DNA of 64,000 nucleotides, from NCBI RefSeq assembly GCF_002139935.1, contig NZ_CP015578.1:496001-560000 (forward strand), written 5' to 3'. Numbering within the stretch: position 1 is the first letter of the stretch; every line of letters starts with the position of its first letter. Below are positions 17,005 to 22,122 of the stretch, piece after piece. Under the pieces are notes generated by a model. It worked only from the letters and a program-made list of their open reading frames with translations, was not told the DNA's origin and made no database searches. The position numbers and the translations under genes are program-made. This stretch comes from Campylobacter lanienae NCTC 13004. GTDB taxonomy: Bacteria > Campylobacterota > Campylobacteria > Campylobacterales > Campylobacteraceae.

Positions 17005-18939
17005 ATGGCAATTTTCCAAGTAACTAACACAATTAGCATCCTAGAAAAGCTCCCACTCAAAAATGGCTACATCTATTATATTGCCAATCTTGATAATTTA
17101 AGTGATATAATGAGCCACGGCATTAGCGCTATCTCCACTGACCCAAAGCGCTCCCACGCTGAGCCGATATATGGCAAGGCAATTAGTGAATATGTAAGCC
17201 TATATTTCAACCCACGCAACGCCACCTTATACTCAGCACAAAAGAGTTACAGAAGTAAGGTTATAATCCTACAAATTCACAAAACTGCTCTACTAGCTGA
17301 TGGAGTGATATTTACTAACGCTAGTGCCACTGCTGCTAGATATGAATGTGCAAATGAGCTTAGCGACTTACTAAATACGCAGTTTATCAGCTGGAGTGAG
17401 GTGATGTCAAAAGACTGGAACCACGCCGATAGATCCATCAAACAATCTAAAATAGATAAAATGATGGCTGAGGCGCTTGTGCCTACGCATTTGTCAATTG
17501 ATATGATAGCTGGTATCATCTGTCAAGATAGCTCTATAGCTAAGAGTATTGCTAGTAATTACAACATTACAGCTGTAGCGGATATGGAGTATTTCTTTCC
17601 TATTAAGCTATATGCACCACAAAGCAAAGATGAGCTAAAGGGCTTAATTTATGATGAAGATATATATTTAGGCGATATAGATACTAGTGCTATAACTGAT
17701 ATGAGTGAGTTGTTTGCTTGGAGTGGGCGTGAAGATTTTAGCGGTATAGATAATTGGGATGTAAGCAGTGTGACTAATATGAGTGGGATGTTTGCTGGTC
17801 GCGAAAATTTCAATCAACCACTTGATAGCTGGAATGTAAGCAGTGTAGTTAATATGAGCTGGATGTTTTATAATTGTGAAAATTTCAATCAACCACTTGA
17901 TAACTTGGATGTAAGCAGTGTAGTTAATATGAGTGGGATGTTTTCTGGTTGCAAAAATTTCAATCAACCACTTAATAACTGGGATGTAAGTAGTGTAACT
18001 GATATGGGTGAGATGTTTGCTGGTTGCAAAAATTTCAATCAACCACTTGATAACTGGGATGTAAGCAGTGTAACTGATATGGGTCAGATGTTTATAGGTT
18101 GCACAAATTTTAATCAACAACTTAATAGCTGGGATGTAAGCAGTATAATTGATATGAGTGAGATGTTTGCTGTTTGCAGAAATTTTAATCAATCACTTGA
18201 TAACTGGAATGTATCTAATGTAAAGTATATGAATTCTATGTTTTATAAAGTTAAGAATTTCAATCAACCGCTTAATAACTGGGATGTAAGCAGTGTAACT
18301 GATATGAGTGAGATGTTTAGAAATTGCACAAAATTCAATCAACCACTTGGTAGCTGGAATGTAAGCAGTGTAGTTAATATGAGCTGGATGTTTTGCCTTT
18401 GCGATAATTTCAATCAACCGCTTAATAGCTGGGATGTAAGCAGTGTGACTGATATGGGTCAGATGTTTGCTGTTTGCAGAAATTTTAATCAACCGCTTAA
18501 TAACTGGGATGTAAGCAGTGTGGATGATATGAATGGGATGTTTTCTAGTTGCGAAAATTTCAATCAACCACTTAATAACTGGAATGTAAGCAGTGTAATT
18601 TATATGGAAAATATGTTTACTGGTTGCAAAAATTTCAATCAACCGCTTAATAGCTGGAATGTAAGCAGTGTAGCTGTTATGAGTTATATGTTTAGAGGTT
18701 GCAAAAATTTCAATCAACCACTTGATAGCTGGAATGTAAGCAGTGTAGTTAATATGATTAGGATGTTTGCTGGTTGCAAAAATTTTAATCAACCAATTAA
18801 TAACTGGGATGTATCTAATGTAACTAAAATGAGTGGGATATTTGATGATTGCAAAATCAATGATGAGAATAAGCCTAAATTTACTAATATGTATGATTTG
18901 ATGGAAAAAGATGATGATGAAGATGAGATACCATTTTAA
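17005..18939 (+). CDS. DarT-like ADP-ribosyltransferase domain fused to BspA/DUF285 repeats
   Basis: The 644-residue protein has two parts. Residues about 15-205 match the DarT (DUF4433) fold, which ADP-ribosylates bases in single-stranded DNA: the start IYYIANLDNLSDIMSHG, the YFNPRNATLY motif with R71, the central DGVIFTNASATAARYE segment, and the catalytic-glutamate motif MMAEALVP with E156. Residues about 225-640 are one cap plus fifteen BspA/DUF285 repeats of 25 residues (consensus WDVSSVTDMSEMFxGCKNFNQPLNN). No signal peptide or membrane segment is visible, so the protein is probably cytoplasmic, unlike secreted BspA proteins. DarT toxins normally pair with a DarG macrodomain antitoxin; none is present in the window. 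AAAGG lies before the ATG. Calling the first domain DarT is strong from motifs; what the repeats do is unknown. Confidence 0.85.
   Translation: MAIFQVTNTISILEKLPLKNGYIYYIANLDNLSDIMSHGISAISTDPKRSHAEPIYGKAISEYVSLYFNPRNATLYSAQKSYRSKVIILQIHKTALLADGVIFTNASATAARYECANELSDLLNTQFISWSEVMSKDWNHADRSIKQSKIDKMMAEALVPTHLSIDMIAGIICQDSSIAKSIASNYNITAVADMEYFFPIKLYAPQSKDELKGLIYDEDIYLGDIDTSAITDMSELFAWSGREDFSGIDNWDVSSVTNMSGMFAGRENFNQPLDSWNVSSVVNMSWMFYNCENFNQPLDNLDVSSVVNMSGMFSGCKNFNQPLNNWDVSSVTDMGEMFAGCKNFNQPLDNWDVSSVTDMGQMFIGCTNFNQQLNSWDVSSIIDMSEMFAVCRNFNQSLDNWNVSNVKYMNSMFYKVKNFNQPLNNWDVSSVTDMSEMFRNCTKFNQPLGSWNVSSVVNMSWMFCLCDNFNQPLNSWDVSSVTDMGQMFAVCRNFNQPLNNWDVSSVDDMNGMFSSCENFNQPLNNWNVSSVIYMENMFTGCKNFNQPLNSWNVSSVAVMSYMFRGCKNFNQPLDSWNVSSVVNMIRMFAGCKNFNQPINNWDVSNVTKMSGIFDDCKINDENKPKFTNMYDLMEKDDDEDEIPF
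17755..18879 (+). repeat. 75-bp in-frame tandem repeat array, 15 units
   Basis: Fifteen consecutive units of exactly 75 bases, with no insertion or deletion, encode the 25-residue DUF285 repeats. Each unit starts at a TGG or TTG codon (17755, then every 75 bases to 18805). Units share near-identical blocks such as GATGTAAGCAGTGT and AATTTCAATCAACC, so slippage or recombination could change copy number while keeping the frame. Confidence 0.95.
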
Positions 18940-20358: not shown

Positions 20359-20577
20359 TTAAATCATTTTAGCTTGGGCTTTTAAAATCTCTTTATAAAG
20401 TTCTCTAAGCTTTGTCGTAAATGGTCCGATTTTGCCGCCATTTATGGCCTTACCATCGGCTTTAATGACTGGCAAAAGGATTATAGTAGCAGCACTTATG
20501 AAGCACTCATCTGCGTTATAAACTTCATCCATGCTAAATTTACGCTCTTGTATTTGTAGGCCAATTTACTTAGCCAA
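20359..20577 (-). pseudogene. 3' fragment of a D-amino-acid aminotransferase gene
   Basis: Read on the minus strand this encodes about 70 C-terminal residues of Dat: LAK, a stop where the complete gene has Gln, then IGLQIQERKFSMDEV onward to LYKEILKAQAKMI. It is a diverged duplicate of 22246-22462, offset by 1887 bases. The upstream part of the gene is replaced by the PDDEXK reading frame, which enters the fragment in frame and stops at the new TAA (CAA changed to TAA). It fills most of the 250-base gap between the RcnR gene and the nuclease gene. Confidence 0.92.
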
Positions 20578-21864
20578 AGAGTATTTTTCTATAAGTTTTT
20601 TGTTTAATTTTTCTAAGACATCTTTTAATTTTTCCAAATCATCACAGATTTTATTAACGATTTCACTAATAATTTCATCATTGCTTAAATAATCCAAAAT
20701 CAAATTATCAGCATTGCTAAATTTTTTATTACAATAATACCATGCCCACCATTCGCCGCTCCCGTTCCATTCGTCGCTATTATTACTACTTTTATTTTTA
20801 TAATAATCACTTTCTTTTACAATATCTTGAAAACAATCATTATCTAATCTATTCTTTACTTTAATACTACGTTTTAGACCAAAAAATATATTATTATATC
20901 CGTTTTGCGGTTCTACACAATAATAAATATAATTGCCATCGTGGTTTTCTTCATTATATCCTTTTAATTTTATAGAAAAAATTTTATTACTCCGTTTTAT
21001 TTCGTGAAATTTTTCTATTTCCCAATCTTTTGTATTTTTTGTCTTTATTGTTTCTTTTAAAGTTTCATAAACTTTGCTAAACAATTCATTTAATAAATTT
21101 ATTTTTGCGTTTTCAAACTCATTATGTATATTTACACAAAGCTTATAATTTTTTTTGATTTGTTCTATTATTAAGTTATTTTCCATTTTCTCTCCATTTA
21201 TTAGATTTTTTACTGCTTTTTCGTATTGCGTGATTATTACATTTAAATCAGTTAAATTAACAATTTCAATTTTTACTTCATTTAGCCACTTTAAAATGTC
21301 ATTACAAATTATATGTTTGTAGGGAATTTTATCATTGCCTTTTTCTAAAAAGCCATCTTTGATTTTAAAGCCGTTTAAGCTTTCTTGGCTCGGTGTTTTA
21401 TCAAAATTAGGCGTAAGATATAAAACTAGAATTTCATCGTTATCTAATGATGAATTTTCTTTTTTAATAGTTTCTATATACCTATATATTTGCTTATATT
21501 GGTCTTTGGCATCCCAAATTTTATTTTCTATGATAATGTGTTTATTGCCATCAGTGATATAAATATCTATGTTTTTATACTCTCTATACACTTGCGAGTT
21601 TAAGGTATTAAGCCCAAAATCATCTATACCACATACTTCTATAAATTTATTTAAAAACAAATCACCTTGATAATGTAAGCCCTTAGGGTCTAGCAAAGAG
21701 GCTATAAATTTTGAGTGTTTTACTTCTCTTGTTTCAAGCACATCAAAAACATTATAATCATGAATTCCACGAGCTCTACGCTCTTTTACCTTATTTTCAT
21801 ATTCTTTATAAGCCTTTTCAAACTCATCAAAAAACTTTTGATATTTTTGTGTGAATTCAGCCAT
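20566..21864 (-). CDS. PD-(D/E)XK nuclease superfamily protein (PDDEXK_4-like)
   Basis: This 432-residue protein has the signature EVKHSKFIASLLDP at 47-60 and HYQGDLFL just after, then the nuclease core: D100 in NIDIYI and E113-x-K115 in IIIENK. This is the PDDEXK_4 type often found singly in accessory regions; its substrate is unknown. The ATG has a strong ribosome site (AGGAG). The last four residues (SLAK or LAK) come from the fused Dat fragment, so the natural C-terminus may be lost. High Asn/Lys content and the duplicated flanks point to acquisition. Confidence 0.85.
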   Translation of the reverse strand: MAEFTQKYQKFFDEFEKAYKEYENKVKERRARGIHDYNVFDVLETREVKHSKFIASLLDPKGLHYQGDLFLNKFIEVCGIDDFGLNTLNSQVYREYKNIDIYITDGNKHIIIENKIWDAKDQYKQIYRYIETIKKENSSLDNDEILVLYLTPNFDKTPSQESLNGFKIKDGFLEKGNDKIPYKHIICNDILKWLNEVKIEIVNLTDLNVIITQYEKAVKNLINGEKMENNLIIEQIKKNYKLCVNIHNEFENAKINLLNELFSKVYETLKETIKTKNTKDWEIEKFHEIKRSNKIFSIKLKGYNEENHDGNYIYYCVEPQNGYNNIFFGLKRSIKVKNRLDNDCFQDIVKESDYYKNKSSNNSDEWNGSGEWWAWYYCNKKFSNADNLILDYLSNDEIISEIVNKICDDLEKLKDVLEKLNKKLIEKYSLAK

Positions 21865-21973
21865 TTTAACTCCTAAAAAATATTTGTAATTTTACCATAA
21901 TTTTAAAAAATATAACCAAAAGCGTTCGTATTTTTGTATTATAATTGCAAAACCAAAAAAGAAAATAAAAAAA

Positions 21974-22122
21974 TGAGTAAATACACACTAAAAACAAAAG
22001 ATGAGCTAATAGAGCTTGTAAAAGATGTAAATTTGATTTTAAGCTATATAAATACTAGCAGTGTAACTAATATGAGTGGTATGTTTTATGGTTACAAAAT
22101 CAATGATGAGATACCATTTTAA
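21974..22122 (+). pseudogene. collapsed BspA/DUF285 repeat gene
   Basis: The reading frame encodes 49 residues from ATG 21974: an N-terminal module (MSKYTLKTKDELIELVKD) like the segment before the repeats in the DarT fusion, a single repeat core TSSVTNMSGMF, and the tail YKINDEIPF shared with the large gene. A TATAAT box lies just upstream near 21938. It looks like a BspA gene reduced to its two ends by recombination between repeats. Whether the short peptide is made is unknown. Confidence 0.75.

Follow-up and report, generated by a model that had tools for sequence, protein, structure and literature searches.

A DarT-derived domain on a PARCEL/DUF285 repeat protein of Campylobacter lanienae: a probably defused toxin without DarG

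How does a bacterium come to carry a gene of the DarT toxin family without the antitoxin DarG? The question is raised by a gene of Campylobacter lanienae NCTC 13004 within the window, i.e., the whole stretch of 64,000 nucleotides analysed here, which corresponds to bases 496001-560000 of the complete 1,594,554-bp genome. The initial annotation described a DarT-family domain fused to 15 phased DUF285 repeats, with neither a signal peptide nor a macrodomain gene in the window, and proposed that the repeats replace DarG as a built-in inhibitor or sensor, or else that the toxin is delivered or inactive. The fusion itself is borne out: the gene is one ORF of 644 aa, in which the repeat period is exact (25 aa or 75 bp, 15 units).

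17005..18939, plus strand: whole ORF (644 aa), a single open frame with profile matches, comprising a DarT-like domain, a PARCEL leader and 15 PARCEL/DUF285 repeats
17005..17604, plus strand: N-terminal DarT-like domain (aa 1-200), by Pfam, PADLOC, phmmer and hhalign
17611..17712, plus strand: PARCEL leader (YAPQSKDELKGLIYDEDIYLGDIDTSAITDMSELF), common to many Campylobacteraceae DUF285 proteins
17680..18874, plus strand: 15 PARCEL/DUF285 repeats of 75-bp period, a beta-solenoid in the predicted model

Over the remainder of the protein behind the DarT-like domain, DUF285 (Pfam) scores 535 bits and TIGR02167 (NCBIfam, PARCEL) 240 bits, above the cut-off. PARCEL repeats are built from a 25-aa unit, occur in many copies and spread horizontally (Roeske et al. 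2010, PMC2996958). In other organisms, many DUF285/PARCEL proteins are membrane proteins or lipoproteins on the cell surface, and a class of PARCEL proteins without targeting signals has already been described (PMC2996958). A literature search for DUF4433/DarT joined to repeats retrieved no paper. The frequent surface location of the repeats elsewhere speaks for a delivered effector, a toxin that would pass into neighbouring or host cells and use the repeats for binding or delivery. We nevertheless regard delivery as highly improbable, since no signal peptide or lipobox of the kind that would mark a BspA-like secreted or surface protein is apparent on inspection of the 644-aa translation, and no immunity gene adjoins the locus. 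PARCEL proteins are numerous in Campylobacteraceae, and most of those read begin directly with the leader and carry no signal peptide. Moreover, the repeats also occur on cytosolic AAA+ ATPases of the bpMoxR type (genomes G001 and G146).

L101:3449-5488 and L101:7093-9246, minus strand: fusions of a bpMoxR-type AAA+ ATPase with PARCEL/DUF285 repeats
L079:1252-2934, minus strand: fusion of the same type

The MoxR-PARCEL proteins of G001 are tandem paralogs, which adjoin, as read from the translations, a vWA-like gene and dynamin-like GTPases. MoxR-vWA ternary systems have been described as conflict systems that acquire modules, typically inactive ones (PMC7159879), and the occurrence of PARCEL repeats on such conflict-type ATPases makes, by analogy, a binding or sensing role of the repeats plausible. 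In Campylobacteraceae, repeats usually assigned to surface proteins are thus joined to cytosolic conflict-type domains, namely DarT and MoxR ATPases.

Several further observations concern the repeats and the surroundings of the gene. At L104:1250-2809 and L069:102-1478 (both plus strand), PARCEL repeats are preceded by N-terminal domains that span 220-250 aa and match nothing in Pfam, and these proteins are possible further cytosolic PARCEL fusions. Elsewhere in the C. lanienae genome (C1:1575266-1578415, L007), DUF285 fragments lie near a truncated vWA-like ORF and are possibly the remnant of a MoxR-vWA-PARCEL system. A mini-ORF in the window (21934-22122, plus strand) comprises the PARCEL leader and one repeat, ends in a DEIPF-type tail as in the DarT fusion and looks like a collapsed PARCEL gene. 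Finally, a low-GC region at a distance of 1.6 kb from the DarT gene encodes a PDDEXK_4 protein (window 20566-21864, minus strand), which matches the PADLOC candidate defence family PDC-S26 (E 1.2e-52).

The N-terminal domain is a member of the DarT superfamily: Pfam DarT (PF14487) matches aa 35-185 with 81.6 bits (cut-off 22.5), PADLOC DarT matches aa 21-183 (E 5.7e-21), phmmer links the domain to PDB 7omu, and a profile of the three nearest copies aligns with a DarT2 profile in hhalign (probability 96.1%, E 3.3e-9). The Pfam alignment does not start until profile position 31, and against the NCBIfam toxin_DarT equivalog the protein reaches 62.2 bits, well short of the cut-off of 150. While the family assignment of the initial annotation stands, its statement that the DarT motifs occur in order does not, given the late start of the profile match, the score under the toxin_DarT cut-off and the degenerate motifs. 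In the full-length AlphaFold model the repeats alone were modelled (pLDDT about 75-91), not the DarT part, and a Foldseek search with this model yielded no significant match, which is uninformative on the DarT part. For the DarT domain alone, a model based on 20 sequences reached a pLDDT of 38, too low for use.

Within the genus, six of 16 genomes contain a DarT match, and five of these matches are PARCEL fusions: the C. lanienae protein, those of genomes G006 and G007, and those on a sheep contig (G010) and a yak contig (G011). Among named relatives, the nearest to the DarT domain (93-94% identical) come from Campylobacter MAGs obtained from the rectum of yak and the caecum of sheep. No other DarT with PARCEL repeats was present among the loci examined from 397-399 genomes each of the order and the phylum. 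Two unusual loci were recorded alongside. In G009 (L014/L015 and L020), a frameshift-split DarT lies at the end of one contig and a gene for a 338-aa macrodomain protein on another, and at G280:C7:1939-2571 two pieces of the DarT profile match within an open frame of 1559 aa, an unusually large protein.

Whether the domain can still act as a toxin was judged by aligning it to the chains of three DarTs in the PDB, those of Thermus (DarT2, 7omv), Thermosipho (7omu) and Mtb (7yk3), and to further DarTs from the same order; reference residues are numbered as in Thermus (Taq) DarT2.

17077..17088, plus strand: degenerate beta-1 motif YIAN (aa 25-28) where H-x-T-H is expected, by alignment with 7omv, 7omu, 7yk3 and the order DarTs
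17122..17163, plus strand: shortened NAD+-binding loop, about 12 aa missing, by alignment
17149-17151, plus strand: R49, aligned with catalytic Taq R51 next to the loop deletion
17224..17226, plus strand: T74 at the position of the essential Met that stabilises the intermediate (Taq M78, DarT1 M71), by alignment
17323..17325, plus strand: S107 at the base-coordinating position (Taq H119, DarT1 N104), by alignment
17470..17472, plus strand: E156 at the catalytic Glu position (Taq E160), kept, by alignment

The protein keeps E156 (E160), Y67 (Y71) and probably R49 (R51), and the core segments FNPRN, MMAE-LVP and DLLN-FI-W-EV are conserved. The glutamate was correctly placed by the initial annotation; its R71, taken as the catalytic arginine, belongs to FNPR and corresponds to Taq position 75, the probable R51 counterpart being R49, and its presumed motifs YYIANLDNL and DGVIFTNASA lack the H-x-T and the base-reading Asn/His, respectively. 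At Taq positions 13/15/51/71/78/119/160, the C. lanienae protein reads Y A R Y T S E, the yak and sheep MAG copies Y A R Y A S E and the G007 fusion C S T Y L S E, compared to H T R Y M N/H E in G006 and most canonical DarTs; position 119 is Asn in most DarTs and Ser in the C. lanienae protein. In DarT1, the substitutions M71A and N104A, at the M78 and H119 positions, abolish toxicity (PMC11543638). For EPEC DarT2, M84L combined with G49D gave the same behaviour as the dead E170A (PMC13368585); M84 equals Taq M78 by residue offset from R57/R51. Since the Thermosipho DarT likewise has Tyr at position 13, the case for lost activity rests on the combination of changes, which suggests that the domain is catalytically dead. 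A DarT profile match by itself thus overcalls active toxins in annotation.

The antitoxin is missing beyond the window. In the complete C. lanienae genome, a search for the Macro domain with E. coli among the positive controls gave 0 matches, which confirms and extends the earlier observation for the window, and a darG elsewhere in the genome, named by the initial annotation as evidence against its reading, was not found. NADAR and ADP-ribosylglycohydrolase (ARH) domains also gave 0 matches in this genome in searches that were positive in control genomes, and both were discarded as substitute antitoxins. No macrodomain gene was detected in G007, G010 and G011 (the latter two being fragmented MAGs), and no darG remnant was found adjoining the DarG-less copies.

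How unusual this combination is emerges from about 58 DarT loci, in which H13, R51, Y71, M78, N/H119 and E160 defined the canonical site. All 13 distinct canonical genome loci have an adjoining DarG, and so do 19 of 20 canonical-type viral loci; the contig of the 20th ends 3 bp after darT, and one of the 20 has a cut-off N-terminus. The viral loci came from a scan with one DarT query, while two other DarT queries gave 0 or 1 match. Among DarT2-type loci, replacement of both M78 and N/H119 together with loss of both H13 and T15 is confined to the four PARCEL copies without DarG; every one of these four has lost residues whose substitution abolishes or strongly lowers toxicity in studied DarTs. 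Decay without DarG loss also occurs, as a broken DarT with a stop codon and a missing N-terminus still adjoins DarG (L030). Several distant DarT-like proteins of other subfamilies, which are not comparable, have no DarG nearby.

The counterpart is the fusion of G006 (L010): its 421-aa protein combines a canonical active site with a frameshifted repeat tail, and a darG gene lies 11 bp upstream. The encoded DarG of 235 aa matches Pfam Macro and PADLOC DarG (153 bits), and its best PDB matches are 5m3i and 5m31. This is the one known DarG-linked fusion, the other four being DarG-less. Here the antitoxin gene persists next to a fusion whose site is intact, so in this genome DarG was not superseded by the repeats. 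This bears on the proposal of a one-chain toxin-sensor, according to which DarT remains active, perhaps on another substrate, but is kept inhibited by the repeats until a trigger such as a phage binds. The retention of E156, Y67 and probably R49, the lack of a separate antitoxin of known type and the junction of such repeats to conflict-type MoxR ATPases would all suit this proposal. Yet the equivalents of M78 and N/H119, the H-x-T and part of the NAD+ loop are lost in all DarG-less copies, and the repeats are insufficient as an inhibitor in G006, which renders an active toxin under control of its own repeats distinctly unlikely.

The G007 fusion occupies the same place as that of G006, after gpsA, and is without darG. 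The flanks of both are 97% identical until about 105 bp past gpsA; beyond, about 900 bp of G006 including darG stand against 37 bp in G007, and the first ~115 codons of darT have diverged, the remainder being 90% identical in protein. A nearly identical flank followed by a darG gap and a diverged 5' darT looks like recombination. From these alignments, it is probable that the fusions descend from a darG-darT-PARCEL operon as in G006, and at the shared gpsA locus darG and the 5' darT region would have been swapped out in G007. Among five sequences, the N-terminal site patterns unite the C. lanienae protein with G007 at 8 sites and with G006 at 13, and do not favour the view that the degenerate state of C. 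lanienae and G007 arose only once. The N-terminal halves of these two are not specifically alike, and the residue losses in the two lineages thus were probably parallel, as far as such weak evidence from five sequences indicates.

The fusions occupy three different chromosomal sites: G006 and G007 carry theirs after gpsA, the yak and sheep copies follow an acyl-CoA thioesterase gene, and the C. lanienae copy is flanked by msrAB and a cation-efflux gene, a slot occupied in the close relatives G008 and G015 by a small membrane-protein-like gene or what remains of it. Between C. lanienae and the sheep contig, the DNA of the DarT domain is about 96% identical and the MsrAB proteins 84%, which fits recent horizontal transfer. 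Neither a pattern scan nor 50,697 phage records yielded viral relatives of the C. lanienae DarT, and plasmid relatives are distant and mostly DUF4433 proteins.

Could the DarT part simply be a toxin fossil on a PARCEL gene, functionless, with selection acting on the repeats alone or on nothing? Among the C. lanienae, yak and sheep copies, dN/dS is about 0.34 with P about 0.13 when the null reproduces the base changes observed; purifying constraint is not claimed, and a selected role is not demonstrated. This lack of significant constraint fits a decaying remnant, as do the loss of catalytic residues in two lineages, the frameshifted repeat tail of G006, the split DarT of G009 and DUF285 remnants elsewhere in the C. 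lanienae genome. Still, although the lineages are about 45% identical, the DarT frame is fully open in the C. lanienae, yak, sheep and G007 copies, and the core segments mentioned above are kept, so that mere decay appears rather unlikely to us.

Instead, the sequence comparisons make it reasonably probable that the gene encodes a horizontally moving accessory PARCEL/DUF285 protein, whose DarT2-derived domain has been defused, leaving DarG dispensable, and now forms a non-catalytic module on a beta-solenoid scaffold. Its N-terminal domain would have lost key parts of the NAD+- and base-binding site, would probably no longer, or barely, be a toxin and would not transfer ADP-ribose to DNA; with this transfer most likely lost, DarG would be unneeded. 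The present protein may be a cytoplasmic, non-catalytic ART-fold module on a repeat scaffold, which would bind a partner through variable faces of the beta-solenoid and work, if at all, by binding. Of the alternatives first raised, an inactive DarT appears to fit best. By analogy with the inactive modules of MoxR-vWA conflict systems, whose ATPases carry PARCEL repeats in Campylobacteraceae, the inactive DarT might even be retained as bait or decoy for anti-DarT factors, DarG-type proteins or substrates of DarT, with a recombining scaffold to sense or bind invaders, a role we consider unlikely.

Compared to DarT2 of DarTG2 (Thermus PDB 7omv-7on0, EPEC, Mtb), the C. lanienae protein has a homologous ART domain that keeps the catalytic Glu, Tyr71 and probably Arg51; it differs by the loss of H-x-T, M78 and H/N119, the shorter NAD+ loop, the C-terminal PARCEL array and the absence of DarG. 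Its repeats resemble those of the horizontally spread, multicopy PARCEL/DUF285 proteins with their 25-aa unit, in the description of which (PMC2996958), unlike here, no ADP-ribosyl term occurs. The Thermosipho africanus DarT-macrodomain fusion (PDB 7omu) is likewise a single chain with a DarT domain and Tyr at position 13, yet its fusion partner is its macrodomain and not a repeat array. The darG-darT-PARCEL operon of G006 has the DarT-PARCEL fusion, the MAI[FY]QV start and the leader in common with the C. lanienae gene, whereas the canonical site and darG are found in G006 only and the DarT domains are 45% identical. Together, these copies constitute a natural series that begins with a toxin under guard (darG-darT-PARCEL) and leads to site-degraded copies lacking that guard, in apparently two separate lineages, which makes the loss of an antitoxin with retention of the toxin gene a directly testable question.
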